A stretch of 64,000 bases of DNA from Flavobacterium collinsii. Its GTDB lineage: Bacteria > Bacteroidota > Bacteroidia > Flavobacteriales > Flavobacteriaceae. The notes under the pieces are model-generated. The model did not search any database, was not told the origin of the DNA, and was given only the letters and a program-made list of their open reading frames with translations. The position numbers and the translations under genes were made by a program. The DNA lies in the NCBI RefSeq assembly GCF_902804485.1, contig NZ_CADCST010000102.1, forward strand, positions 1 through 64,000, given 5' to 3'. Of this stretch, positions 34,549 to 47,044 are shown in pieces (position 1 is the stretch's first letter; each line of letters starts with the position of its first letter).

Positions 34549-35052
34549 TTACTTCATAATTTTCAGGACTAGTCGCCCTAACCAGTTTTCATTGAATTCC
34601 GTCATTTTGTCTAACATATTATCTGCTTTTAAAACAAAATCATACAATTTAGTAGTTTGATCTACAAAGTGTTTTTCTTCTGCGGAATCTTTTGCATCGA
34701 TTGTCGAAACTTCTTTTAAAATTTTAAGAGCGGGTTTGATTTCCCTTTTGCTTCTTTCTCTTGAAATTTTAACGGCTAATTCGTCCAGATCTTTTTCAGC
34801 AGTAAAAAATTCTCTTCTTTCTCCGGCTTTGTATTCTTTATAAACAATTCCCCAATCCATTAAAGCTCTAAGGTTCATGCTCGCGTTTCCTCTCGAAATT
34901 TGCAATTCGTCCATTATATCTTCCATAGAAACAGGCTCATTCGAAACCATTAATAAAGCATGGATTTGTGCCATGGTTTTATTAATCCCCCATTGAGAAC
35001 CTAATGCTCCCCAGGTTTGTACGAACTTATTTTTTGCTTCTTTGAATTCCAT
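34549..35052 (-). CDS. GbsR/MarR family transcriptional regulator
   Basis: A 167-residue protein. The winged helix covers ~10-90: FVQTWGALGSQWGINKTMAQIHALLMVSNEP is the GbsR-type start, MEDIMDELQISRGNASMNLRAL is the recognition helix region and VYKEYKAGERREFF the wing. C-terminal helices (~95-165) probably dimerise. It lies head-to-tail with the operon it probably controls, with matching palindromes upstream of itself and of that operon, indicating autoregulation. Ligand unknown. Confidence 0.88.
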   Translation of the reverse strand: MEFKEAKNKFVQTWGALGSQWGINKTMAQIHALLMVSNEPVSMEDIMDELQISRGNASMNLRALMDWGIVYKEYKAGERREFFTAEKDLDELAVKISRERSKREIKPALKILKEVSTIDAKDSAEEKHFVDQTTKLYDFVLKADNMLDKMTEFNENWLGRLVLKIMK

Positions 35053-35210: not shown

Positions 35211-35218
35211 TAGATTTG
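35211..35218 (+). promoter_or_regulatory. Candidate -7 promoter box of the peptide cluster
   Basis: TAGATTTG matches the Bacteroidota -7 consensus TAnnTTTG. It lies ~70 bp upstream of leader copy A. No clear TTTG -33 box is seen, so this is tentative. Confidence 0.3.
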
Positions 35219-35287
35219 ATATAGAAAATTAATGAAAAATTATTTTCTAAGTTGTTCATTATCAGATGATGAATTGAGTTTATTACT

Positions 35288-35370
35288 GTGGAGCAGAACC
35301 CACTAAAAAAAACGAGCTGTTTCGCACAGTAAAACGCGAAGGCGGATCTGAAAAGCCTTATGAGTAGGAC
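35288..35370 (+). ncRNA. Conserved structured 5' leader, copy A
   Basis: Contains hairpin GTGG-AGCAGAAC-CCAC (35288-35303), an A-rich linker, an extra hairpin CTGT-TTCGC-ACAG (35317-35329), then GGCGGATCTGAAAAGCC and TTATGAGTAGGA. The first 29 nt are identical to copy B at 44916, and the 3' block is shared with copies B and C. The element precedes the first gene of the cluster. An open frame starting at ATG 35360 begins inside the motif, so the real start is more likely 35384. Unknown RNA motif; could be a riboswitch or translational control element. Confidence 0.5.
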
Positions 35371-35383
35371 AAAAACTATTATT

Positions 35384-36040
35384 ATGCAAGCAATACCTGT
35401 AAAAGTTAAAAATGTGAAAGTCTACCCTTACATTGATTGGAATGGTGGAGGGATTGGACCTGTTATTCTTCCTGTTATCGAAGGAGCCAGCGGAACTTAC
35501 GCGGTTGGAACACTTGGAAGATCTGTATTCTACAATCTTGATTTAGCCCCTGAAAAATCTAGTATTGGTATACATCAGAGATATTTAGCAACTGGAGAGA
35601 CTGAAGATGGTACTCCATTTACAACTCCATGGATGTATAGCACAAGCACAACTGGTGACATAGAGTTCGGAAGAACCATAACAATAGGGGTAAGAGAATC
35701 TGAAGCTATTAATGTTGGAAGCATACCTCCTTATATTGTATTAGGGCCACTTACAAATATTACAGTAACTCAGATACTTCCGGCGCCAGCAATTGGAGAG
35801 AGAATAATAATTGAAAATGGTTCGGGTAATATTATTGCTACCAGAACTGGTACTCCTCATGAAATGGGAGTTGATGTAATTGAAGGTAACCGTTTAGGAA
35901 GATTAAGAGCAGGATTGAAAAACATCATGATTACTGGGAAAAACAAAGATGGCCAAACAGTGACTATCGGGCATCTGACTTGTTTGGATCCAAATGAACC
36001 AGCTCTTTTTTTACAGCAATTTGGACCTAGTGAACATTAA
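35384..36040 (+). CDS. Beta-rich protein of unknown function, first gene of the peptide cluster
   Basis: A 218-residue protein from ATG 35384 (MQAIPVKVKNVKVYPYIDWN). An ATG at 35360 would add eight residues but sits in the conserved leader, so I prefer the shorter form. The sequence is rich in Gly, Ile and Thr with predicted beta strands, no signal peptide and only one Cys. It begins with charged VKVKNVKVYPY and contains repeated GP/P-I patterns (GIGPVILPVIEG, PPYIVLGPL). No family recognised. It is followed by two DUF1843-like peptides and may be a structural or carrier partner. Confidence 0.75.
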   Translation: MQAIPVKVKNVKVYPYIDWNGGGIGPVILPVIEGASGTYAVGTLGRSVFYNLDLAPEKSSIGIHQRYLATGETEDGTPFTTPWMYSTSTTGDIEFGRTITIGVRESEAINVGSIPPYIVLGPLTNITVTQILPAPAIGERIIIENGSGNIIATRTGTPHEMGVDVIEGNRLGRLRAGLKNIMITGKNKDGQTVTIGHLTCLDPNEPALFLQQFGPSEH

Positions 36041-36089
36041 AAAAGATTAATCCTCAAACGAAACAAATAATAACTAAAAAATAATAGCT

Positions 36090-36266
36090 ATGGGAGTAAT
36101 CATGCCTTATGGTGTTGCTATCAGAGAAGCTCTGGTTTCTAATGATCTGGCCAAGATGGAAGCTATTGCCAAACAAGCGAAGCAAACCATAAAAGATCAG
36201 GGAGATCTGACAGTTGCTTTACTGGACTTGTTAGACGCGATAGATTCTTTAAAGAAGAAAAAATAA
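36090..36266 (+). CDS. DUF1843-like small peptide 1 (candidate precursor peptide)
   Basis: 58 residues: MGVIMPYGVAIREALVSNDL then AKMEAIAKQAKQTIKDQ, GDLTVALLDLLDAIDSLKKK. It resembles DUF1843 proteins (MPYGVAI-EAI-SGDL-KM pattern). All helical, no Cys, Lys-rich C-terminus. It is a close paralogue of the peptide encoded at 36340, and both lie just upstream of a radical SAM/SPASM enzyme, the typical place of a ribosomal precursor peptide. The 49-bp gap from the previous gene lacks the leader motif. Confidence 0.82.
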   Translation: MGVIMPYGVAIREALVSNDLAKMEAIAKQAKQTIKDQGDLTVALLDLLDAIDSLKKKK

Positions 36267-36268
36267 TC

Positions 36269-36319
36269 TGACTTGTACAGAAAAACAAGGGGGTATCTGA
36301 AAAACCTAAAGAGTAGGAA
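36269..36319 (+). ncRNA. Conserved structured 5' leader, copy C
   Basis: Hairpin CTTGT-ACAGAAAA-ACAAG (36271-36288) has an 8-nt loop with CAGAA like copies A and B, but a different stem sequence that still pairs. GGGGGTATCTGAAAAACC and TAAAGAGTAGGA follow, as in the other copies. It lies between the two small peptide genes, right after the stop of the first. Confidence 0.5.
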
Positions 36320-36339
36320 CAACTAAAAAACAAAATATT

Positions 36340-36513
36340 ATGGCAACAGTACTTTACGGAGTGGGAATCAGAGAAGCGATTGCTTCAAATGATTTAGAAA
36401 AAATGGTTGCAGTGGCTGAACAAGCTAAGAAAACCATAAGAGAACAAAAAGATTTGCATGTAGCATTGGTAGAATTGCTTGATGCAATTGATGCCTTGAA
36501 AAAGAAAAGGTAA
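36340..36513 (+). CDS. DUF1843-like small peptide 2 (candidate precursor peptide)
   Basis: 57 residues: MATVLYGVGIREAIASNDLE then KMVAVAEQAKKTIREQ, KDLHVALVELLDAIDALKKK. It shares YGV-IREA, SNDL-KM, AVA-QAK-TI and DL-VAL-LLDAID-LKKK with peptide 1, so it arose by duplication. It is preceded by leader copy C and followed by a strong hairpin before the radical SAM gene, which would favour high peptide and low enzyme expression. Confidence 0.82.
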   Translation: MATVLYGVGIREAIASNDLEKMVAVAEQAKKTIREQKDLHVALVELLDAIDALKKKR

Positions 36514-36516
36514 TCT

Positions 36517-36560
36517 AAAAAAGACGGTTTATCAAGTTTTACTTCTTAAACCGTCTTTTA
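36517..36560 (+). terminator. Attenuator/terminator hairpin between peptides and maturase
   Basis: AAAAGACGGTTTA - 16-nt loop - TAAACCGTCTTTT, a 13-bp stem followed by AATTAATTG, only 4 bp after peptide 2. It probably limits read-through into the radical SAM gene. Confidence 0.75.
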
Positions 36561-36590
36561 ATTAATTGTCAAACCGTAAATAAAACTAAG

Positions 36591-38021
36591 ATGGATACTA
36601 TTAAGACTTCGACACGATACAGAGTAAGAGATGATTATGAAACAGCTACTCCGGTTCATGTAGTATGGGAAATTACTTTAGCATGTAATTTGAAATGCTC
36701 GCATTGCGGATCAAGAGCTGGAAAAGTAAGACCGGGAGAACTAACTACAGAACAATGTTTTGATGTTATTGATAGTCTTAAACGTCTTGGTACAAGAGAA
36801 ATTTCCATTATAGGCGGGGAAGCTTTTTTAAGAAAAGACTGGATTGAGATTATCGAAAGAATACATCAAAGCGGAATCGAATGTTCGATGCAGTCCGGTG
36901 CTTATAATTTAAACGAGGAACGAATCATTAGTGCAAAAAAAGCAGGAATAAATAATATAGGTGTTTCCATTGATGGAATGCCGGATACTCACAATAAAAT
37001 AAGAGGAAGAAGAGATTCTTTTGAACATGCCGTTAATTGCTTGGCACTCCTAAAAAAACACAACATAACTTCTAGTGTAAATACAGTAATTACAAAAAGA
37101 AGCAAAAATGAGATGAATGAGCTTTTGGATGTTTTGATTGAAAATAATGTAAAAAACTGGCAGATTCAACTTGCTGTTGCTATGGGGAATGCCGTTGATC
37201 ACTCAGACGAATTGATCGTTCAGCCTTATGAATTAATTGATTTTTACGATGACCTCATCGTGATCTACAGAAAAGCCTTAGCGCATAATATTTTAATACA
37301 GGCCGGAAATAACATTGGTTATTTTGGACCGTATGAACACATTTGGAGACAAGGCAATGAAAAATATTATACAGGATGTTCGGCTGGACATACAGGAATA
37401 GGGATTGAGGCAGATGGAAAAATAAAAGGCTGCCCATCATTACCAACAAGTGCCTATACGGGAGGAAATGTAAAAGATATGGCTCTGGAAGATATCTGGA
37501 AATATAGCGAAGAAATGGTTTTCTCCAGATATAGAAATAAAGAAGAATTATGGGGTGGCTGTAAAGGCTGCTATTATGAATCTTCTTGTCTGGCAGGCTG
37601 TACCTGGACAAGCCATGTGCTGTTTGGCAAGAGAGGAAACAATCCTTTTTGCCATCATCGTGCTCTGGAATTAAAGAAGAAAGGCCTTAAGGAACGAATA
37701 AGAAAAATACAGGAAGCACCAGGCGAATCTTTCGATATGGGACTTTTTGAAATTATAGTGGAAGACGAAAACGGAGTAATCGTAGAAATACAATCCCCAA
37801 CTAGTGAAGCTCCAATTCAGGTTACTGGCCCTATTGCCAGAGTACCAAGAATTCCTAAAGCACTGAAGTTATGCAATGGATGTGATAATTATGTTTATGA
37901 AGAAGAAGAGGTTTGCAGTTTTTGCAATAGCGAGGTGAAAAAAGTAAACGAGGAATATGCCGCTAAAATGGAAGCCGCAAAACGCTCGCTGGAAAAACTG
38001 GAATTCCTAATGATGAAATAA
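36591..38021 (+). CDS. Radical SAM/SPASM peptide-modifying enzyme with C-terminal zinc ribbon
   Basis: A 476-residue protein. Radical SAM motif CNLKCSHC (C32, C36, C39) binds the SAM-cleaving 4Fe-4S cluster, and GGEAFLRKDW (~77-86) is the SAM-binding motif. SPASM domain (~255-370) has CSAGHTGIGIEADGKIKGCP and CKGC..SSCLAGC..NPFC cysteines for auxiliary clusters. An extra C-terminal CNGC..CSFC pair (C428, C431, C442, C445) looks like a zinc ribbon. I recall maturases of this type named for GDL-motif peptides that match DUF1843. It lies directly after two such peptides and probably modifies them. It overlaps nothing; the next gene starts after 1 bp. Confidence 0.88.
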   Translation: MDTIKTSTRYRVRDDYETATPVHVVWEITLACNLKCSHCGSRAGKVRPGELTTEQCFDVIDSLKRLGTREISIIGGEAFLRKDWIEIIERIHQSGIECSMQSGAYNLNEERIISAKKAGINNIGVSIDGMPDTHNKIRGRRDSFEHAVNCLALLKKHNITSSVNTVITKRSKNEMNELLDVLIENNVKNWQIQLAVAMGNAVDHSDELIVQPYELIDFYDDLIVIYRKALAHNILIQAGNNIGYFGPYEHIWRQGNEKYYTGCSAGHTGIGIEADGKIKGCPSLPTSAYTGGNVKDMALEDIWKYSEEMVFSRYRNKEELWGGCKGCYYESSCLAGCTWTSHVLFGKRGNNPFCHHRALELKKKGLKERIRKIQEAPGESFDMGLFEIIVEDENGVIVEIQSPTSEAPIQVTGPIARVPRIPKALKLCNGCDNYVYEEEEVCSFCNSEVKKVNEEYAAKMEAAKRSLEKLEFLMMK

Positions 38022-38022
38022 A

Positions 38023-38601
38023 ATGGAGCAGTTAAAAAATATTCAATCCGAAATTGAGCAGTTCTCGCATCATATTGAAGAAGGTTTAAGTCTGTCGGAA
38101 ATTACCATTAAGTACGGTTTAAATTCTTACCGGTATGGATCTTCCAGTTTTTTAGATGACCTTTTCGATCCGATTTCCATCACAGACAAAACCGTATTTT
38201 ATGATTTAGGTTCTGGTTACGGAAATATTATTTTATACGGTGCGATACAATATCCAAATGTTCAGTTTAAAGGAATAGAAATTCTTGAAGAGCGAAATAA
38301 AGTTTGTGTTGATTTAATCGAAAAAGAAGGAATCACTAATGTTACGGCCATTTGTGGCGATCTCTTAAAGGCTGATATTTCTGATGGCAATGTTTTTTAT
38401 CTCTACAATCCTCTTCATGATTTCCAATACGCTGAATTATTAGACAAACTCTATCAGGTTTCTTTGAAGAAAGACATTATAGTAATTGCAGAATCCCATT
38501 GCAGTTCTTTTGACGAAGCCGATTGGCTGGAACAATATTATCTTAAAGATATTGATGTCATCAGAAAAATTAAATATTACTGCTCTAAACCGGCTCATTA
38601 A
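38023..38601 (+). CDS. SAM-dependent methyltransferase (DOT1-like fold)
   Basis: A 192-residue class I methyltransferase. VFYDLGSGYGNIILYGAIQYP (~57-77) is motif I (DLGSGxG), FKGIEILEERNKVC (~82-95) the ribose-binding acidic motif, ICGDLLKADI motif II and VFYLYNPLHDF (~126-136) motif IV-like. Best similarity by eye is to DOT1/KMT4-like SAM-binding proteins. It starts one base after the radical SAM stop, so it is co-translated and is probably a tailoring enzyme. Confidence 0.82.
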   Translation: MEQLKNIQSEIEQFSHHIEEGLSLSEITIKYGLNSYRYGSSSFLDDLFDPISITDKTVFYDLGSGYGNIILYGAIQYPNVQFKGIEILEERNKVCVDLIEKEGITNVTAICGDLLKADISDGNVFYLYNPLHDFQYAELLDKLYQVSLKKDIIVIAESHCSSFDEADWLEQYYLKDIDVIRKIKYYCSKPAH

Positions 38602-38658
38602 AACCCACCAAACTAATAATAGAAATCAAATCAATTAATAATTTAAATCAAAAGAGTT

Positions 38659-39471
38659 ATGGCTAGTTTAAGTTCAATTATTCTTCCGGTTCTTGAAGGG
38701 ATGGAGGAATCACATTTAAAAGATCAATTATTAAAATTTCTGCCAAATCAGGAGGAATCATTTTCAAAAATTGAAAAAAGTTTTAATCAGTTGACTTCTA
38801 AAGTTCAGGATAAAGATCGTTTACAGCGTTTTTTTCATAGTTGGAGCCAAACCAATAACAGTGCAATGACAGTTGCCGGAATCAGCAACCGTATGACAAT
38901 GCTGGTCCATAAAAATCAACCTATTGGAGATGAAAAAGCATTATTACAGTCTATCACCAGTTTAAATAGAATTGTTGATGAAGATCTGGCAGTTGTGGGC
39001 AGAATTTTACATTCACAAATGTTTTACACCATGGCAACTACAATTTGTACTGATGATGATTGGCTTTCACGCCGCTATTTAAATCAAAGTGCCAGTGATT
39101 TTAAAAAATGGAAAGATCAAAATTCATTGCGAAATAAAGACATCATGATCGCTTTGCTGACCACTTTGATACATGAAATTTATACGCATGGAGAAGTAGA
39201 ATTGATATTACCAAAATTCCAATCCTGGCTCATTAATGCTTATGGTTACACCGAAGAAGAATGCGATAAAACACTGGCCTGGATAAGCGTTCATTGTGGA
39301 CCAACGGAGAAAAATCATTTCTTTTTTGCGGTTAGTTCCATTTTTCACTATGCTAAGGCAATGAATATCAATCTTGAATCGTATGATCTTGAAGTAATTG
39401 TTAACGACTATTTAGCTAAAAAATCAGCTGTTATGGTAGATCTTTTGGAGGTTGAAGAATTGAGTTTTTAA
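38659..39471 (+). CDS. TenA/heme-oxygenase-like fold protein (possible diiron oxidase)
   Basis: A 270-residue all-helical protein. TLIHEIYTHGEVELI (~171-185) and WISVHCGPTEKNHFFFAV (~207-224) place Glu, His and acidic residues in the rough positions of metal ligands of CADD/PqqC-type heme-oxygenase-like diiron oxidases. The helix-1 ligand set is not clearly recognised. If correct, it would oxidise the peptide or another metabolite. No signal peptide or membrane segment. Family assignment is tentative. Confidence 0.5.
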   Translation: MASLSSIILPVLEGMEESHLKDQLLKFLPNQEESFSKIEKSFNQLTSKVQDKDRLQRFFHSWSQTNNSAMTVAGISNRMTMLVHKNQPIGDEKALLQSITSLNRIVDEDLAVVGRILHSQMFYTMATTICTDDDWLSRRYLNQSASDFKKWKDQNSLRNKDIMIALLTTLIHEIYTHGEVELILPKFQSWLINAYGYTEEECDKTLAWISVHCGPTEKNHFFFAVSSIFHYAKAMNINLESYDLEVIVNDYLAKKSAVMVDLLEVEELSF

Positions 39472-39520
39472 ATCCACATACCAAAACTACTTATTACAAA
39501 AAAATAAACTTCAACGCCGT

Positions 39521-40747
39521 ATGTCAAAAATTAAGCTGCAACGAAATCAAGCTGATAAACAGGAAAAATGGAATCAGTTGTTTTTTGAATATTTTCAAAA
39601 GGGTAACATTTTACACAGAGATTCTTTTGCCAATTCCTCGGTAGTCCTTCATCCGGAGTACAATGGAGAAATGGATCGCTTGTGCGCTGTTTTAAGCAAA
39701 GCCTCTAAAGCAATTGTTTTAAATTATTTTGAAGACAGTCGAATTCGGAACTATTATCAACTGGATAATGACCTTGAAGGTATATTGAAAAAAAGTAATA
39801 GCCAGACCTATAATCAGGGCTTTTATCGCCCTGATTTTTTATATGATACAAACGATCAGCCTAAGATTTGTGAAATAGGGGCACGATATCCGCTAAACGG
39901 CTGGATGATTAGTTATTATTCACAATTGATACACAATCGCACCAATTCGCATAATGAAAAAGTGCATATCAGCGGTACCGATTTAGAAAATCTTATCGAC
40001 GATCTTTCCCATCGGTTTGCTCCCCATCGAAAAGTAGCGCTCATTCACGATGATGAAAAAGGCAGCGATATTTTTAATGCTCAAAGAGAATTAGCAAAAT
40101 TAGATATTGAGCTAATTTCTGCAAAACCTCAGGACCTCATCATTTCAAATAATTTAATATCGGTAAACGGAGTAGCGGTTTCGCAATTTATACTGGAAAT
40201 GGATCGGGAAGAACTAAAAAAAATCAGTCCCGACGTACTGGATAAATTAATCGAAGAAAATAGTTACTTCAATGATATTCGGACCTTAATCTTAATTCAT
40301 GACAAAAGAGTTCTGGCCGTAATGTATGATGCTCAGATCATGCAGGATTATTTGAGTGAGGAAGACTATAGCTTTTTGAGAAATTATCTCATCCCGAGTT
40401 TTGTTATTACGGATCCTGCGGACTGTGATGCTTTTACAGATACAGAGCAAAACCTGATTTTAAAACTAAATAGCGGCGGAAGAGGAATTGGGGCTTACGT
40501 AAAAAGTGATTGTACCAACGAAAACTGGAATAGGATTGTCCGAGAAAATTGGGACAAATACCTGATTCAGCATTTTGTGGATCAGAAAGAGTTTAACGAT
40601 ACCGAAAACAATCGCCAGATCTATTTAGTTGGGATGTTGCTGTGTAAAGACGACAAAACTTACGGGTCCGGCATATTTAGGGGATCTGACGAATCGGTTG
40701 TGAATGTACATCAGGGGAGAGCCTTAATTTATCCAATAGCTCAGTAG
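39521..40747 (+). CDS. ATP-grasp-like ligase of unknown substrate
   Basis: A 408-residue protein. LYDTNDQPKICEIGARYPLNGW (~108-129) and LILKLNSGGRGIGAYVKSD (~312-330) are the likely substrate and ATP P-loop-like parts of an ATP-grasp or circularly permuted ATP-grasp fold, and WDKYLIQHFVDQKEF (~346-360) resembles the following strand. Usual chemistry is ATP-dependent amide bond formation. The next gene follows after 7 bp. The assignment depends on motif reading only. Confidence 0.55.
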   Translation: MSKIKLQRNQADKQEKWNQLFFEYFQKGNILHRDSFANSSVVLHPEYNGEMDRLCAVLSKASKAIVLNYFEDSRIRNYYQLDNDLEGILKKSNSQTYNQGFYRPDFLYDTNDQPKICEIGARYPLNGWMISYYSQLIHNRTNSHNEKVHISGTDLENLIDDLSHRFAPHRKVALIHDDEKGSDIFNAQRELAKLDIELISAKPQDLIISNNLISVNGVAVSQFILEMDREELKKISPDVLDKLIEENSYFNDIRTLILIHDKRVLAVMYDAQIMQDYLSEEDYSFLRNYLIPSFVITDPADCDAFTDTEQNLILKLNSGGRGIGAYVKSDCTNENWNRIVRENWDKYLIQHFVDQKEFNDTENNRQIYLVGMLLCKDDKTYGSGIFRGSDESVVNVHQGRALIYPIAQ

Positions 40748-40754
40748 TAAAAGT

Positions 40755-41669
40755 ATGAAACATACAGTTGTTATACCGCTTTACAATAAAGAGGCGTATG
40801 TCTATGATACGATTCGTTCTCTGGCTTTTCAGGATAAAAAAGCAGCACAAGTCGTCATAATCGATGATTTTAGTACGGACCAGAGTCTTGCCAATCTCAA
40901 AGAGGCACTCTCCTTTTTTGCGCCACAATTTCTACAAACAAAGGTTCAAATTATTGAATTAAAAGAGAACAAAGGTCCCGGAAACGCAAGAAATATGGGA
41001 ATCGAATTGGCAACAGGAGACCTGATTAGTTTTTTGGATGCCGATGATTGTTATGTGTCTTCCTGTTTACGCGATGTCAGTACGATTATGGAGAAGGAGA
41101 ATATAGATGTTTTGGTTCTTGGAATTTTACTTGTTCCGTCTAATTATTATATGCCAAACATTAAATCCTTTGAAAAAGAATTGATTTCCCTTTCGAATGA
41201 TTTGTTTATAATGCCTTATCCCTTGCACACCGTTAGTTCTCCCGATTTTATTATGGGTGTTGGGAGCAATGTGGTGGTTCGGAAAAACCGGTTGACGAAC
41301 ATCCGTTACGAGGTTGATGTTTCTTTAAATGAAGGAATCGATTTTTGGTATCGCGTTTTAAAAAATACGCCTGCATCGTCACGGGTCGGTTTATTGAATA
41401 AAACTTGTATCGAAGTACGGGAGGTTGACGGCAGTTTGTCCCGGATTCGTTATTTGACCTGGAAAGAATTAGAGATTCCCGTTTCAATACTACGATATCG
41501 GGAAAGTACCAATCGATACGATCAGCAATTAATGGGAATGTTGTCCCAAAGATGGTTGTCCCACGCTATGAAACGATTACCCTCCTTGAAGGAAAAAGGC
41601 TTGTTTCTCTTTCATCATTGCAGACTCTTGATTAAGAACAGCTACTATTTAAAAACACGAAGTAAATAA
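40755..41669 (+). CDS. Glycosyltransferase family 2
   Basis: A 304-residue GT-A protein: TVVIPLYNKEAYVYDTIRSL (~4-23), VVIIDDFSTDQS (~33-44), KGPGNARNMGIELATGDLI (~74-92) and the metal-binding SFLDADD (~93-99). It is near the start of the string in this cluster, 7 bp after the ATP-grasp-like gene. No membrane helices. It may glycosylate the cluster's peptide or a lipid; unproven. Confidence 0.88.
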   Translation: MKHTVVIPLYNKEAYVYDTIRSLAFQDKKAAQVVIIDDFSTDQSLANLKEALSFFAPQFLQTKVQIIELKENKGPGNARNMGIELATGDLISFLDADDCYVSSCLRDVSTIMEKENIDVLVLGILLVPSNYYMPNIKSFEKELISLSNDLFIMPYPLHTVSSPDFIMGVGSNVVVRKNRLTNIRYEVDVSLNEGIDFWYRVLKNTPASSRVGLLNKTCIEVREVDGSLSRIRYLTWKELEIPVSILRYRESTNRYDQQLMGMLSQRWLSHAMKRLPSLKEKGLFLFHHCRLLIKNSYYLKTRSK

Positions 41670-41678
41670 AAACACCTC

Positions 41679-42878
41679 ATGATGTCCCCAGTTTGTATTC
41701 CTGCCAAAATTGATCACGCTGTATTTCAAAATTATTTTGAATTGGTGAAACAGAATCCTTTATACATCGAATTCTACAAAGGAAATGACTTTGCAGCAGG
41801 AGCCCCTATGTTAAGTAAAAAAGAGTTAACGCCAATTTTAAATACAAATTTTAAACTTCAGAATGAAAAAACGGGGGTATATCTGGTACGCTCAGGCGGA
41901 AGCACTCAAAAGCCTTTGGTATTTCCGGTCGATATACAGGAAAATCACAATCAGCGTCTTGCACTGGCATCTGAACTTACTAAGAACAACTTTTTTACGC
42001 CTGAAACAATTGCCCTGAACATTTTTGGTTATTCTGATATGTACCGTACAGCGGCCATTATGGATGACATTTTAGAAAAATGCCAGGCAACTACTTTAGC
42101 CTTAAGTGCACATGCCAGTTATGAAGATATGGAGCAGGCGGTCCATCATTTTAAACCAAATTTTATATTTGGAACTCCTTCAAAACTATTATGTTTTGCT
42201 CAGTATTTAAAAGAGAACAACAGAAAAACAGAGATCGAAAATTTATTTTATGCAGGTGAGTTTTTAAGACCTAACACACAAAAGTTTTTACAAAAAATGC
42301 TCGGTTTTCAACAAGTTTATTCCATGTATGGCTCTGCCGAAACCGGAATTTGGGCCTGGTCGCATTGTACTAAAACCCCCTCTTTATTTTCGGTTATTAA
42401 TGGTGTTATTGTTGAAATTATAAATCCAGATGAAAACGGATACGGCACACTTGCGATTACCAATACCTTCCGCAAAAGATTTCCGGTTTTCAGATATGCA
42501 ATTGGCGACTTAGGCCGATGGGTGGAGCTGGAGGGGAAGTCTTTTCTCGAACTGAAATCCAGAGAAACCAAATCATTTATAGTTTGTGAGCAGCATTACG
42601 ATTTAGACGAATTTCTTTTGTTGACAAGTGAGACCGATGCTTTTCAGATTCAACTGTCGACGAATGCCTCTTTTAAGGAAGTAGTTAGAATGTTAATGGT
42701 GCAAAATGTTTCGGAAGATAAAAGACAGGATTTTATCAGTGAAAAATGTGCAGCATTAAAAAAACTACTCAACTACGAGGAATGGTGTATGGAAGTTGAG
42801 GTTCTGCTGGTTAACGCAGCAGATCTGTACATCGATCCCAATACAACTAAAACACCTGTACTCTTAGATTTGAGATGA
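41679..42878 (+). CDS. PaaK-like adenylate-forming enzyme
   Basis: A 399-residue member of the ANL-like phenylacetate-CoA ligase / PaaK group. VYLVRSGGSTQKPLVFP (~67-83) is the phosphate-binding loop, FGTPSKLLCFAQYL follows, YSMYGSAETGIWAW (~210-223) is the adenine-binding motif and FRYAIGDLGRW (~269-279) the ribose-binding Asp. The C-terminal domain is short. It should activate a carboxylate as an acyl-AMP. No thioester carrier domain is attached. 9-bp gap after GT2. Confidence 0.8.
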   Translation: MMSPVCIPAKIDHAVFQNYFELVKQNPLYIEFYKGNDFAAGAPMLSKKELTPILNTNFKLQNEKTGVYLVRSGGSTQKPLVFPVDIQENHNQRLALASELTKNNFFTPETIALNIFGYSDMYRTAAIMDDILEKCQATTLALSAHASYEDMEQAVHHFKPNFIFGTPSKLLCFAQYLKENNRKTEIENLFYAGEFLRPNTQKFLQKMLGFQQVYSMYGSAETGIWAWSHCTKTPSLFSVINGVIVEIINPDENGYGTLAITNTFRKRFPVFRYAIGDLGRWVELEGKSFLELKSRETKSFIVCEQHYDLDEFLLLTSETDAFQIQLSTNASFKEVVRMLMVQNVSEDKRQDFISEKCAALKKLLNYEEWCMEVEVLLVNAADLYIDPNTTKTPVLLDLR

Positions 42879-43135
42879 TTTTTTAGGAATCACTTTCTTT
42901 CATTGGCTTTCAAAAAATAGTTCTATTCCATTGATTACTTGCTTTATGGATAAAAAAACCAGTCTCATGACATTTTTTTATTTAAGACTTGATAAGCATT
43001 GTAATTTTATTCGGCAAAATAAAAAATGATGATTTTAAAAGGCTATTTGTAACACAATCAGCAAGATACAATCTCCGATAAAAAAATCTGAATAAAGCAA
43101 AGAATAAAAAATAACAACCCCAAAAACTAATTACC

Positions 43136-44965
43136 ATGAAAGATTTATCCTCTTCCACGTCAACCTGCGTGGATCCGATCCCAGATTCGAGATACCCTGT
43201 TTTGGAGCCTTTTTCTGGCCAGAAACCCCGACTTCCACAATTTTGGAAATGTACCTGTGTACTTCACCCTTTTAGCCCCCCACAAAGTAACAGCACCCCC
43301 GCGGACCTAGCGAGTCCATTTTTTGAAATTTGTACAGCCACTGTTTATTATGCAGAAGGGCTTGGATTAAATGCTCTGCTGGTAGGCAGTTCCGGAAGAA
43401 GATGGTGGTACAGAGTTACCCCAACTCAAACGGAAGTATCTACAGATGGAACTCGTTATACTCCTATAAATCTGGGCTGGAGAATTCCAACTACAGATTG
43501 GTTTGGAAACGCAACCGATAAAGCTAAATGTTCAGGAACCAGTTACCTAAACTGGATGAAAGCACAGAAAGTAGACTGGTGGAAAATTCCGGTGGGCAAT
43601 AGCAACCCGTCACCTGCTACCTGGATGTGGTTTGATCATGGTACTAATTTTCCGGTACGTCTTATGTTCGGGCAAGGGCCTGTTGCAAGGCCTGGTCTGG
43701 GAGATGTTAATCAGCTGGCACTTTTTCAAATGTTTTCATTCACCTATTTTTCCAATTTTGACCGCTTACCAAGCAATCCGTTAAACAACCCTTTGGTGCC
43801 TCCGGTAGTAGAAGGTTTCTCTTTTGGTAACCCGAACCGATACAACCTGTTTACCTGGAATACCAATTTTGGAATGAGCGTTTTTATGACACCGGTCAAC
43901 TCAGCATTCAATCCGCTGCCTACAAGAGTTTTATACAATTGGAGAGATGCGTCACAATATAAGGTTTCATCAGATAGAAGTCAGAGTACACTGATGAAAT
44001 ATACGTACAATACCACGAACCCCTTTACTGCCCAGCAAGCCCTTCTTACAGGACCTACCCCGGCAGGAATAACACCACCGCCAAACAGTGGTAACGGTTT
44101 CTTAATTAATTATGTTGGAGACAAAATAACAGAAGCTATTGGTTTTGCAAGGTTTCCATTTCCGCAGCAGCCGCCAAACTGGGTTCAGATTCCGGCAGTA
44201 AAAGGCAGCATTCAGGCAACCATTATCAGTAATCCTGTACTTTGTCCGGGTAACAGAGTGACGGTTGTAGGAGTATTATTTCCGCCTTCAGGGAATAACT
44301 ACCCAGATTCTACCTATCTGTGGACCTGGTACAGCCCCTTAGATCCAACCGGAAACAGCAGCCGTCCGATAACCTTTATGCAATCACAATCAGGTGTAGG
44401 TTTAGGAACCAGTCTTGCTCTGGCAGATTACTTTGATTATGAAGAATTCAGAACGCCAATTCCGCCTTGCAATTTTGCAGTGCCGCCAGTCGATTTTACA
44501 GTAAAAGCAAAACCTGTTTCAGGTACAGACTCCTATCCATGGCTTAACACAGGTGTTCGACTGAATGAGAAGAGAGTGGCCACCATCAAGTATGTGGATG
44601 GTTTGTGGACGGCAAATCCAAATATCAACAACGGCCAGTTATACAATTCAGCCGGAAACCCAACTTTTATTGAAGCCAAACCCGGATATGCACTTCCAGG
44701 TAAAAACGAAGGTGCACTTATAGGTAAAGTAGGAGACACCGTTTTCTTAATCGGACTGGGAGCAAGCACGCCACCGGGTGTTGTTGGAACATTGGAATTA
44801 TGCATCAACGATGATTTGAAAGGAAAGTATGGCGCCGGTCTGACAGACAATAAAGGAGAGGTAAATGTGAAAATAAGCGTTGAAGCTCCCGGAACAAAAA
44901 TAAAGTTGAATAAAAGTGGAGCAGAACCCACTAAAAAAAACGAGGCGGTCTCTGAAAAGCCATAA
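43136..44965 (+). CDS. Large protein with C-terminal PA-IL-lectin-like domain
   Basis: A 609-residue protein without a signal peptide or helices. The first ~480 residues are Trp/Pro/Asn-rich with many aromatic motifs (RRWWYRVTP, KVDWWKIPVGN), family unknown. Residues ~485-590 (YPWLNTGVRLNEKRVATIKY, then ANPNIN, EAKPGYALPGKNEGALIG, KVGDTVFLIG) match the galactose-binding LecA/PA-IL-like domain. The last ~17 codons are encoded by leader copy B (44916-44974), whose stop is inside the motif. 257-bp gap before it, gene-free. GC appears somewhat higher than in its neighbours. Confidence 0.75.
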   Translation: MKDLSSSTSTCVDPIPDSRYPVLEPFSGQKPRLPQFWKCTCVLHPFSPPQSNSTPADLASPFFEICTATVYYAEGLGLNALLVGSSGRRWWYRVTPTQTEVSTDGTRYTPINLGWRIPTTDWFGNATDKAKCSGTSYLNWMKAQKVDWWKIPVGNSNPSPATWMWFDHGTNFPVRLMFGQGPVARPGLGDVNQLALFQMFSFTYFSNFDRLPSNPLNNPLVPPVVEGFSFGNPNRYNLFTWNTNFGMSVFMTPVNSAFNPLPTRVLYNWRDASQYKVSSDRSQSTLMKYTYNTTNPFTAQQALLTGPTPAGITPPPNSGNGFLINYVGDKITEAIGFARFPFPQQPPNWVQIPAVKGSIQATIISNPVLCPGNRVTVVGVLFPPSGNNYPDSTYLWTWYSPLDPTGNSSRPITFMQSQSGVGLGTSLALADYFDYEEFRTPIPPCNFAVPPVDFTVKAKPVSGTDSYPWLNTGVRLNEKRVATIKYVDGLWTANPNINNGQLYNSAGNPTFIEAKPGYALPGKNEGALIGKVGDTVFLIGLGASTPPGVVGTLELCINDDLKGKYGAGLTDNKGEVNVKISVEAPGTKIKLNKSGAEPTKKNEAVSEKP

Positions 44966-44974
44966 GAGTAAGAA
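44916..44974 (+). ncRNA. Conserved structured 5' leader, copy B
   Basis: First 29 nt identical to copy A (hairpin GTGG-AGCAGAAC-CCAC, then A-rich linker to ACGAG), then GGCGGTCTCTGAAAAGCC and ATAAGAGTAAGA. It overlaps the last codons of the upstream 609-residue gene, yet sits 20 bp before the DUF1842-like start. The sequence is therefore both coding and a candidate leader. Confidence 0.5.
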
Positions 44975-44993
44975 AAATCTAAATCAAAAAGTT

Positions 44994-45407
44994 ATGTCAA
45001 ATTTATTAGCAGGTGCTTATTTAGCAAAAGGCACAATCGGAAATGTTGGAACACCAGGTGCTCCAGTTGCATCATTTAGTTTAGTTGTTGTACCGTCACA
45101 ACATTCAGTTACAGGTACAGTAGTAATTACTCAGGCGGTAGCTGGTCCTGACAGCCATATCGTGGTTCAGGTAAGAGGTAAAATTTATCCAACAGGATTT
45201 GGTGAAGTGACTCAGGTAGTTAGTTTACAAGGACAATATGTTCAGTCTTTCCCTCCTCCGGCAATTGGAGCTTTTTTAGCAGACTTTGATGCTCATTTAG
45301 CTATCGATAATGGATGGAACGGAACAGGTGGGTTCTCTTACTACGAGCACACTGTTACAAAAGCACCGGTAAAGGCAGCAAAGAATCTGAAAGAGGAATT
45401 GGCTTAG
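44994..45407 (+). CDS. DUF1842-like protein
   Basis: A 137-residue protein from ATG 44994 (MSNLLAGAYLAKGTIGNVGT). A longer frame from 44916 would start inside the leader and is rejected. TPGAPVASFSLVVVPSQHSVTGTVVITQAVAGPDSHI fits the DUF1842 pattern (read by pieces: ASFSLVVVP, TGTVVITQA). It ends in a Lys-rich tail. DUF1842 and DUF1843 proteins are, as far as I recall, genomic neighbours, which supports the reading of the peptides. Function unknown; possibly a structural or binding partner. Confidence 0.72.
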   Translation: MSNLLAGAYLAKGTIGNVGTPGAPVASFSLVVVPSQHSVTGTVVITQAVAGPDSHIVVQVRGKIYPTGFGEVTQVVSLQGQYVQSFPPPAIGAFLADFDAHLAIDNGWNGTGGFSYYEHTVTKAPVKAAKNLKEELA

Positions 45408-45486
45408 GAATAAAATTCTCTCCAAACAATTCTATACAGGAATTTTGAAAATCTGCAAAAAAAATTTCTGGACCAATTAGATATAA

Positions 45487-45518
45487 GAGATCGCCTGCTT
45501 TAGGCGATCTTTTTTATT
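45487..45518 (+). terminator. Terminator after the DUF1842-like gene
   Basis: AGATCGCCTgcttTAGGCGATCTTTTTTATT, 80 bp after the stop codon. Confidence 0.92.
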
Positions 45519-45574
45519 CCTTCAAAAAAGCTGCTTTTTTGAATAACCCTACAAATCAAAAACAAAACAAAACA

Positions 45575-47044
45575 ATGAAAAAAAAACAGATTATTATTGC
45601 CCTGCTGCTTGTTGCGATCGCAGCCAGTCTTGGGGTGTTTTTCTACTACAAGAACAACGAAAAAGGAGTGGATGGAGTTTATGCTACCAGTGCGGCGCCT
45701 GATTCTTGTGAATGCGAGACCAGTTGGTTTCCTCACGAGCAAACACCTGCACCAAAAGAAGGTGACGGCAGTCCATTTGACTCAGACAATACTACCAATT
45801 GTGATTTTCACCAATGGTCCTGGCAGAAATTTTTGTGGGTAACCAAGCCGTTGCCAAGCGGGAATCCTTTTTTCATAGATTCGCTGGATATTGTAAGTCC
45901 GGAAATGGAGGATGTTGCACCACAGCTGGGAATAAAACTAACCTTGAGTTCCATTAATCAGGCAGGTTTCAAAGGGGTACTGCTTTCTAATCCTAAATTT
46001 AATAAGGTTGCGGACACAGTGTATTATTCGATTCACGTGAATAAACTGCTCAAAGACAAAGCCATTTCGGCTGCCTCTTTAATCAACAATGGAAAATTGC
46101 CCGTTTCAAATTCAGAGACCTTTCCGGTTGGGGCTTTAGAACTAAAAGTCTCCTGGATCAGTATCGATGCTATTGTTAAAGAACAGCAAAAAGATTATTT
46201 TACAACTACTGCAGCCGTTAAAAACAGCAAAGGACAATACGTTAAAAAAACGATGGCACTGTTAGGAATGCATGTGGTTGGAATTGTAAAAAATCATCCT
46301 GAGTTTATTTGGGCCACTTTTGAACATAAGGATATGGCACCTGTTTACGATAAGAAAAACAATTTGGTAACCTCAGCAACTGAAAAGTTGTTTTATGAAA
46401 AAGGTACCGAAAAAGATATCAACGGCATCCGATGGTTACGAGGGGCCACTTCGCCGGTTCTTCCTAACAAAGCATTTATTCTTTATGAATATGGAGTGCC
46501 TAAGGATTTAAACACAGGCGACTTTATGGCAACAAGTCAAAAAGAGCCTGCTAATTTTAATAATATTGAGAATATCAATAAATGTGTGGACTCTAAATTG
46601 AAAGATGTTTTTAGAAATTATTTTTACAATGGCTCTGTATGGCTGGATTTTGACGGAGTTTCTCCTGAAGATCAGGTGAAAACACTTGTAACAAAAAACA
46701 TTTCAAGCGCAATTCCGGGTGCATTAGCCAGAGGTTCTGTAAATCTGGCGAACATTACGATGGAAACTTATACGCAGACTTTTCAGGATGACATACATAA
46801 GATTAATAGTGGCACTTTGGTAAGTTGTTTTTATTGTCATCAGGCTTCCAACAGTGACAAAACACGACCTGGCAAATCACCTTTGTTTTTAAGTCATTTG
46901 TTTGCCGATTATTTACAATTTACAAAACCGGCAGGCACTGCTAAGAATGCGAATGTTCTGGGTATCTCACGCGAGAGACGTATTCAGGAGATCGATGCAG
47001 CGAAAATGGATCAGCTTGAAGAATTTATTAAAGCTACGAAGTAA
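45575..47044 (+). CDS. Membrane-anchored protein with one CxxCH haem motif
   Basis: A 489-residue protein from ATG 45575 (MKKKQIIIALLLVAIAASLG). N-terminal membrane anchor ~5-24, rest outside the cytoplasm. CFYCH (418-422) is a c-type haem attachment motif near the C-terminus. SCECETSWF (~37-45) and CDFHQWSWQKFLWVTKP give a Cys/Trp-rich N-terminal region that may carry another metal or disulfide. A terminator separates it from the DUF1842-like gene, so membership in the cluster is likely but not certain. Its redox role is inferred. Confidence 0.72.
   Translation: MKKKQIIIALLLVAIAASLGVFFYYKNNEKGVDGVYATSAAPDSCECETSWFPHEQTPAPKEGDGSPFDSDNTTNCDFHQWSWQKFLWVTKPLPSGNPFFIDSLDIVSPEMEDVAPQLGIKLTLSSINQAGFKGVLLSNPKFNKVADTVYYSIHVNKLLKDKAISAASLINNGKLPVSNSETFPVGALELKVSWISIDAIVKEQQKDYFTTTAAVKNSKGQYVKKTMALLGMHVVGIVKNHPEFIWATFEHKDMAPVYDKKNNLVTSATEKLFYEKGTEKDINGIRWLRGATSPVLPNKAFILYEYGVPKDLNTGDFMATSQKEPANFNNIENINKCVDSKLKDVFRNYFYNGSVWLDFDGVSPEDQVKTLVTKNISSAIPGALARGSVNLANITMETYTQTFQDDIHKINSGTLVSCFYCHQASNSDKTRPGKSPLFLSHLFADYLQFTKPAGTAKNANVLGISRERRIQEIDAAKMDQLEEFIKATK

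Follow-up and report, generated by a model that had tools for sequence, protein, structure and literature searches.

Introduction

In the published splicease system PlpXY, tyramine is excised at natural MYG and LYG sites, and the ketoamide is formed without the need for a leader (PMC10533398). PlpX is placed in IPR026482 and is accompanied by Nif11- or nitrile-hydratase-type leaders and the partner protein PlpY (PMC11002830), and the spliceotide products are said to be protease inhibitors formed by a widespread reaction (PMC10373908, PMC11117315). The present study concerns a gene cluster of Flavobacterium collinsii, lying at about 35384-47044 of a stretch of 64,000 nucleotides (positions 1 to 64,000 of contig NZ_CADCST010000102.1, RefSeq assembly GCF_902804485.1; hereafter, the window), in which two small peptides with the DUF1843 domain precede a radical S-adenosylmethionine (SAM)/SPASM maturase. 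Sequence comparisons lead us to propose that DUF1843 is probably a family of splicease substrates.

Concerning DUF1842 and DUF1843, the crystal structure of a Burkholderia DUF1842-DUF1843 protein shows DUF1842 as a beta barrel; the protein was likely monomeric, its DUF1843 tail was not resolved, and no function was deduced (PMC10994174). Genes of both families are among those most strongly induced in stationary-phase Burkholderia thailandensis and in quorum-sensing Chromobacterium subtsugae (PMC12322963, PMC12114271). The preliminary description of the cluster had stated that no product was described for this combination; no stated product was found, but NCBIfam already has an entry for the DUF1843-maturase pair (TIGR03913, 'GDL motif peptide-associated'), and PMC12114271 (2025) names it too. 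The pairing and the splicease chemistry of PlpX are therefore already known. The connection between the two was not found in the literature searched, although the splicease survey of Scott et al. 2022 (Chem) may contain it; none of the papers on DUF1843, DUF1842, TIGR03913, or the GDL motif peptide stood among those listed for splicease terms, and in three of them neither a splicease nor a tyramine term occurred.

Linkage of DUF1843 peptides and the maturase

Open reading frame (ORF) calling yielded 12 genes, all on the plus strand, in agreement with the preliminary description. Peptide A (36090..36266, 58 amino acids) carries Pro-Tyr-Gly (PYG) at residues 6-8, and peptide B (36340..36513, 57 amino acids) carries Leu-Tyr-Gly (LYG) at residues 5-7; both are proposed splicease substrates. 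Their earlier assignment to DUF1843 is borne out by PF08898 scores of 45.2 and 41.8 bits, above the cut-off of 23.3 bits, and the 5.7-Mb assembly has no further PF08898 match. The maturase, the proposed splicease (36591..38021, 476 amino acids), matches Radical_SAM and SPASM in Pfam and has the cysteine motif CxxxCxxC at residues 32/36/39, seven further cysteines at 263-354 in the SPASM part, and a C-terminal zinc-ribbon-like CxxC...CxxC at 428/431/442/445, consistent with the extra zinc ribbon recognized before. A terminator-like hairpin with a T-run (36519..36559, plus strand; -18.5 kcal/mol for 36517-36565, a value without a shuffle control) stands after the peptide genes and upstream of the maturase gene, and such a separation would fit a higher expression of the peptides.

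A four-sequence alignment (window, Aureibacter, and two Azospirillum) was used for a single scan of 84,980 species genomes, from which the best 80 of 438 confirmed relatives were kept and combined with three plasmid loci and two congeners into a set of 85 loci from Bacteroidota, Acidobacteriota, Pseudomonadota, Cyanobacteriota, and one Myxococcota. Because of this selection, counts over the 85 loci apply to near relatives only. Searching with profiles that were iterated from the window's peptides revealed a DUF1843 ORF in 84 of the 85 loci, in four phyla. In 81 of the 85, the maturase gene is immediately preceded by a DUF1843-bearing gene; a DUF1842 gene stands between the DUF1843 gene and the maturase in L069 and L073, and the DUF1843 ORF of L050 is masked by an overlapping ORF in the gene map. 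DUF1842 itself occurs in 50 of the 85 loci, and the usual order in Pseudomonas, Burkholderia, and Chromobacterium is DUF1843, two DUF1842-DUF1843 fusions, and the maturase.

The presence of the two genes across genomes was also compared. DUF1843 matches were confined to one contig each in the five genomes searched, and among 150 Burkholderiaceae genomes, the identical four hold DUF1843 and the maturase, adjacent in all four; as the draw was centred on G1020, which was known to hold both, only three of 149 cases are independent. Neither gene was found in 14 control genomes. The system is rare in Flavobacteriaceae, where only the window's own genome among 397 had clear DUF1843 matches, and the maturase was found at E <= 1e-80 in three of 395 Bacteroidota genomes (that of the window and two congeneric ones). 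Weak PF08898 matches in G066, G127, and G317 (23.3-25 bits, inside ORFs of 400-759 amino acids) were treated as doubtful. Neither G127 nor G317 had a TIGR03913 match at E <= 1e-80, and the translation of one of these doubtful matches (L012) reads, by the translation only, like part of a long metabolic enzyme.

The near-invariant tyrosine of DUF1843

A tyrosine occupies one column in 198 of 199 distinct DUF1843 domains from 83 loci and the window, and this is the least variable column of the domain (lowest entropy, sequence-weighted). The count was made after removal of 13 duplicate domains (212 to 199), with L072 left out as lacking DUF1843 and the L050 domain lost to the overlapping ORF. The residue before the tyrosine (n = 198) is L in 117 domains, P in 68, M in 12, and A in one, and the residue after it is G in 111, A in 82, M in four, and D in one. 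The window sites read MP-Y-G in peptide A and VL-Y-G in peptide B; the X-Tyr-Gly (XYG) splice motif is thus present in both. Together with the linkage in 84 of 85 loci and the matching genome presence, this motif strongly supports, at the level of sequence, the earlier suggestion that the peptides are substrates of the SPASM enzyme.

An AlphaFold2 model built on 52 DUF1843 sequences (50 of 71 related peptides and the window's two) predicts three helices, at residues 6-17, 20-37, and 41-57, with a mean predicted local distance difference test (pLDDT) score of 75.2, and the tyrosine is located at the start of helix 1 (residue 6 onward). As Foldseek returned no match to the model at E <= 0.001, no structural relative is claimed for DUF1843. 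One paralogue (L046:9589-9753) has LHA for LYA; this natural variant offers no tyrosine for splicing and is usable as a control.

Kinship of the maturase with TIGR04103

The window maturase scored 530.1 bits with TIGR03913 and 419.2 bits with TIGR04103 ('nif11-class peptide radical SAM maturase 3'), the next family reaching 160.7 bits. The two families are mutual nearest neighbours by a wide margin (530/419 versus 161 bits, and 853/415 versus 154 bits), and 102 alignment columns are at least 95% the same in both, 42 of which set the two families apart from three other radical SAM proteins. The nearest maturase is 99% identical and belongs to Flavobacterium sp. nzgw149. In a quick tree of 109 sequences, to which PlpX did not belong, the DUF1843-linked maturases, 85 in all (84 loci plus the window), fell on one side of a branch with support of 97, and the 106-row set holding both families was split from the three other radical SAM proteins with support of 99. 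The CxxC...CxxC ribbon is present in all 84 maturase tails located among the 85 loci, L045 being left out since the pattern was not found there.

The substrates of the sister family were then considered. TIGR04103 was searched in 244 cyanobacterial genomes, of which 18 matched at E <= 1e-100 and 13 exceeded the cut-off, and 1.5 kb was read on each side. A Nif11-type precursor with an [LMP]YG core, often occurring twice, was found in 11 of the 13 over-cut-off loci, with PLYGV in nine of the 11. The Nostoc plasmid p057_G (L020) shows the same layout, with the core ALYGLPPELF after GG and a 71-amino-acid ORF of the LPRS.W type overlapping the end of the maturase. ORFs of this type follow 11 of 14 TIGR04103 maturases and are called PlpY-like here from place and size, not by comparison with PlpY.

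When 12 Nif11 precursors were compared blind with the DUF1843 profile by hhalign, one local match of nine columns was obtained ('p-i--pLYGv' against '----plYgv') at E 0.0012, with a Prob of only 19.5. None of 100 column-shuffled DUF1843 alignments reached this E value (best 0.051), and masking the three XYG columns abolished the match (E 0.31). Eleven other alignments yielded E values between 0.011 and 0.71; the lowest came from the DUF1842(-DUF1843) set, where the match fell on the PLYAV site of that set. The same motif stands beside both maturase families. From the enzyme kinship and the shared near-invariant motif, we infer that the DUF1843 maturases are probably spliceases.

Taken as a whole, the locus resembles the PlpX-type/TIGR04103 systems in that TIGR04103 is the nearest other radical SAM/SPASM family, the substrates have XYG, and the short PLYGV segment is common to both. 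It differs in that the putative substrate is a DUF1843 three-helix domain with an N-terminal site, whereas the site in PlpX-type systems lies in a C-terminal core after GG, behind a Nif11 leader; in addition, no PlpY-like ORF was found here, the enzyme bears the C-terminal CxxC...CxxC ribbon, and about two in five DUF1843 sites are YA, not YG. With other TIGR03913 systems, it shares the adjacency of DUF1843 to the maturase and the ribbon; unlike in Burkholderia, Pseudomonas, and Chromobacterium, where DUF1843 is often fused behind DUF1842, DUF1842 is separate here.

Accessory genes in Flavobacterium

Downstream of the maturase, the cluster contains genes for a SAM-dependent methyltransferase (38023..38601), a protein modelled with low confidence as helices only (38659..39471), an ATP-grasp ligase (39521..40747), a GT2 glycosyltransferase (40755..41669), and an ANL-superfamily adenylating enzyme of the AMP-binding, PaaK-like type (41679..42878), all on the plus strand. 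Pfam confirmed the methyltransferase, GT2 (PF00535, 98.5 bits), and adenylating (PF00501, 31.6 bits; cut-off 29.9) assignments made previously. The gaps across 36591-42878 measure 1, 57, 49, 7, and 9 bp, so that the reported spacing of 1-10 bp holds for three of the five (1, 7, and 9 bp) and fails for two (57 and 49 bp).

The only clear PDB relative of the ATP-grasp protein, and its nearest solved structure, is Cp1B of E-64 synthesis (7e-11 with the single sequence, 2.4e-14 with nine sequences, in two matched stretches), which favours the ligase assignment proposed earlier; Pfam ATP-grasp models match weakly. E-64 and its analogues are built from small building blocks by the ATP-grasp pseudodipeptide ligase Cp1B and the ANL amide synthetase Cp1D (PMC12568646). 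The window likewise holds a Cp1B-related ATP-grasp protein and an ANL enzyme within one cluster, but differs from the fungal Cp1 pathway in that no Cp1A-type oxygenase was recognised and ribosomal peptides are present. The window's ANL enzyme is PaaK-like (NF045666, 55.5 bits, below the cut-off of 300; PDB 9s3l, 1e-6), and has the ANL superfamily in common with Cp1D. On the Aureibacter plasmid pAT1, a gene annotated rimK (L017:11643-13019) lies directly before three DUF1843 genes; it is of the ATP-grasp family by name and did not match the window's ATP-grasp protein. An ATP-grasp-type enzyme may therefore occur beside the DUF1843 system more than once.

Of the 85 loci, 21 have the methyltransferase gene immediately after the maturase gene: 14 are from Flavobacterium or congeners, five from other Bacteroidota, and two from cyanobacteria. 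A 22nd match, in L056, lies upstream of the maturase on the other strand. The helical-protein, ATP-grasp, and adenylating genes occur in 14 of the 85, all Flavobacterium or congeners, and these 14 loci share the post-maturase order of methyltransferase, helical protein, ATP-grasp, and PaaK-like enzyme; GT2 was not detected in one of them (L027), and L033, L034, and L036 have an extra copy. The locus of Flavobacterium sp. KMS (L029) is reduced to two DUF1843 peptides, the maturase, GT2, and the CxxCH gene described below, and none of the methyltransferase, helical, ATP-grasp, adenylating, or DUF1842 genes was detected there; the core can thus stand without the accessory genes. In the literature searched on DUF1843, DUF1842, TIGR03913, or the GDL motif peptide, we found the Flavobacterium cassette, with its amide ligases, described nowhere.

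The helical protein had been called heme-oxygenase-like, for which no credible Pfam or PDB relative was obtained; the model from 13 closely similar sequences (alignment A2, covering 12 of the 14 loci, with L022 and L023 left out) had a pLDDT of 39.5 and is unusable, so that this fold is neither shown nor excluded. Besides the window, the ATP-grasp alignment (A4) covered eight of 14 loci.

Proposed mechanism and its alternatives

At the core of the cluster we propose a splicease system, in which the maturase would cut most of one tyrosine out of the peptide backbone and leave a reactive keto group. The rest of the DUF1843 domain, modelled as three helices, would be the scaffold that the enzyme recognizes, and it may remain part of the product. 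This product would probably be a protein or peptide with a ketoamide that acts as a protease inhibitor, an activity reported for other spliceotides, and in Flavobacterium the methyltransferase, the Cp1B-type ATP-grasp ligase, the adenylating enzyme, and GT2 may decorate it. The preliminary description held the remaining genes to be tailoring or export genes, which they may be. Its remark that an ABC exporter and a leader peptidase are missing is consistent with our scan of the 12 genes and five flanking genes, in which neither was present; the rest of the genome was not searched.

A more far-reaching version can be imagined, although we regard it as speculative and, taken in full, rather unlikely: DUF1843 would be a permanent three-helix display domain with an N-terminal alpha-ketoamide, remaining whole without an exporter or leader peptidase. 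In Proteobacteria it would be fused to the DUF1842 barrel and abundant in stationary phase or quorum sensing, and in Flavobacterium the Cp1B-type ligase and the ANL enzyme would elaborate a hybrid ribosomal/pseudopeptide protease inhibitor.

If the splicease proposal is true, DUF1843, a family so far without a chemical role, would gain one, splicease substrates would be widened to helical domains and protein tails, and PlpY-independent enzymes may become available for protein labelling. The Flavobacterium version would add an amide ligase related to one from a known pathway to a cysteine protease inhibitor. As both the residue and the mass change are predicted, the question is testable by one co-expression experiment.

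Several observations speak against the splicease proposal. The kinship to PlpX runs via TIGR04103 and presupposes that IPR026482 is the InterPro entry of TIGR04103; the literature search found no text linking the two. The window maturase scores below the TIGR03913 trusted cut-off (530.1 against 591.75 bits), as does the Bacteroidota member from Aureibacter (534.9 bits), the TIGR04103 rows of the tree group with support of only 74, and the tree program warned of long branches. Two of the 13 over-cut-off TIGR04103 loci (L119 and L122) showed no XYG precursor within 1.5 kb on each side, a degenerate PlpA2-type core pattern was found in none of 386 cyanobacterial genomes, and the related Myxococcota maturase of L072 had no DUF1843 ORF. 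One of three DUF1843 paralogues in L046, the sole domain without the tyrosine, has His instead. No PlpY-like ORF was detected in the 85 loci and the window (no matches at E <= 10), and the idea that PlpY is fused as the maturase tail was rejected, since hhalign of 11 PlpY-like ORFs against the 84 tails gave a Prob of 1.6. Nor was a Nif11-like ORF present in the DUF1843 loci at E <= 1; nitrile-hydratase-like leaders were not searched. The YA (82 of 198) and P-Y (68 of 198) sites are not among the natural PlpXY sites named in the literature text available, and peptide A itself has proline before the tyrosine. Finally, the tags tested with PlpXY include GGPIRPLYGLPI, and most insertions into FtsZ, GGPIRPLYGLPI and LYG ones included, were not accepted, so that XYG alone does not make a substrate (PMC10533398).

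A rival explanation is a different reaction at the same residue, in which the maturase would alter the conserved tyrosine by oxidative decarboxylation, a tyrosine-centred C-C or C-O cross-link, or epimerization, with XYG serving as shared recognition only. Radical SAM enzymes of pathways to ribosomally synthesized and post-translationally modified peptides are known to catalyse several such reactions (PMC8326336), and the alanine after the tyrosine in 82 of 198 sites and the missing PlpY would suit them. However, the splicease type is matched both by the motif of the substrate and by the enzyme family next in kinship, and many columns are held in common with TIGR04103; a reaction other than splicing is, in our judgement, fairly improbable. 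Much more improbable still is the proposal of Beeby and Yeates that DUF1843 forms self-assembly or shell modules, which would leave the radical SAM enzyme some other role in the operon. It originated from the repetition of DUF1843 paralogues within operons (PMC10994174), and the one to four DUF1843-bearing genes per mapped locus agree with such repetition, but no oligomers of the Burkholderia protein were found in the same report, the near-invariant residue is a tyrosine within a short segment at the N terminus, and the occurrence of the domain follows that of a single radical SAM family.

A further explanation is compatible with a splicease core and concerns only the added genes: the ATP-grasp, adenylating, GT2, helical, and methyltransferase genes might form a separate small-molecule pathway in the same cluster. 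The chances of this are, in our view, slightly short of even. DUF1843 loci outside Flavobacterium lack these genes, except for the methyltransferase and stray GT2 matches, the reduced locus L029 keeps the peptides and maturase without most of them, and an ATP-grasp and ANL pair makes E-64 from small building blocks (PMC12568646). Pulling the other way are the order after the maturase, kept in 14 loci, and the gap of 1 bp between maturase and methyltransferase, both of which would tie the added genes to the proposed splicease core.

Other genes of the cluster

The gene 44994..45407 (plus strand, 137 amino acids) is the DUF1842-like protein of the preliminary description (PF08896, 73.0 bits; DUF1842 protein of PDB 8t0b, E 0.0012); it has no DUF1843 tail and is the sole DUF1842 of the assembly. 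The first gene, D42L (about 218 amino acids), is of unassigned family; its consideration as a DUF1842 relative was rejected, as the profile comparison gave a Prob of 0.8. ORF calling placed its start at 35360, an ATG inside a DUF805-like RNA element (35283..35374), and the ATG at 35384 is therefore the likelier start (35384..36040, plus strand).

LEC (43136..44965, plus strand, 609 amino acids), also of unassigned family, was found in five of the 85 loci, all Flavobacterium or congeners. It had been described as lectin-tailed; no Pfam match was obtained, and none of its four weak PDB matches is a lectin. In its C-terminal region, YGAGLTDN is identical in all five aligned sequences (alignment A3: the window and four of the five loci, L026, L027, L028, and L030) and is preceded by K, L, or I, which makes another XYG; this is possibly chance and possibly a further splice site. 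The last gene (45575..47044, plus strand), of unassigned family, encodes a protein that is hydrophobic over a stretch near its N terminus and carries a CxxCH motif (CFYCH); the gene is present in 11 of the 85 related loci.

RNA elements and neighbouring features

Three RNA elements on the plus strand were matched by Rfam: the DUF805-like element before the first gene (41.7 bits, below the gathering threshold of 51.1), a DUF805b element before peptide B (36287..36319; 36.9 bits, gathering 35.6), and a DUF805 element before DUF1842 (44911..44978; 69.9 bits, gathering 51.1), which overlaps the 3' end of LEC. The first and third are two of seven DUF805 matches in the whole genome; other genomic copies precede a gene reading by eye like DUF805 itself (L007) and other genes. 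A literature search for the role of the DUF805 RNA element found nothing. The element occurs in six of seven Flavobacterium loci scanned: the DUF1842 gene starts 14-19 bases after it in L023, L028, L030, and L031, and the called DUF1842 ORF overlaps it in L026 (by likeness to the window) and L035. The seventh locus, L029, has neither the element nor DUF1842, and no DUF805 element was found in six other Bacteroidota loci.

A MarR/CudC-like regulator (34549-35052, minus strand; NF047500, 52 bits, below the cut-off) is encoded divergently to the cluster and might regulate it; in several relatives, a gene of equal length (167 amino acids), matched by length alone, lies near the cluster. Farther away, a Flavo-1 small RNA is located at 592-700 of the window, and a 5S ribosomal RNA, its 5' end cut by the window edge, at 1-100.

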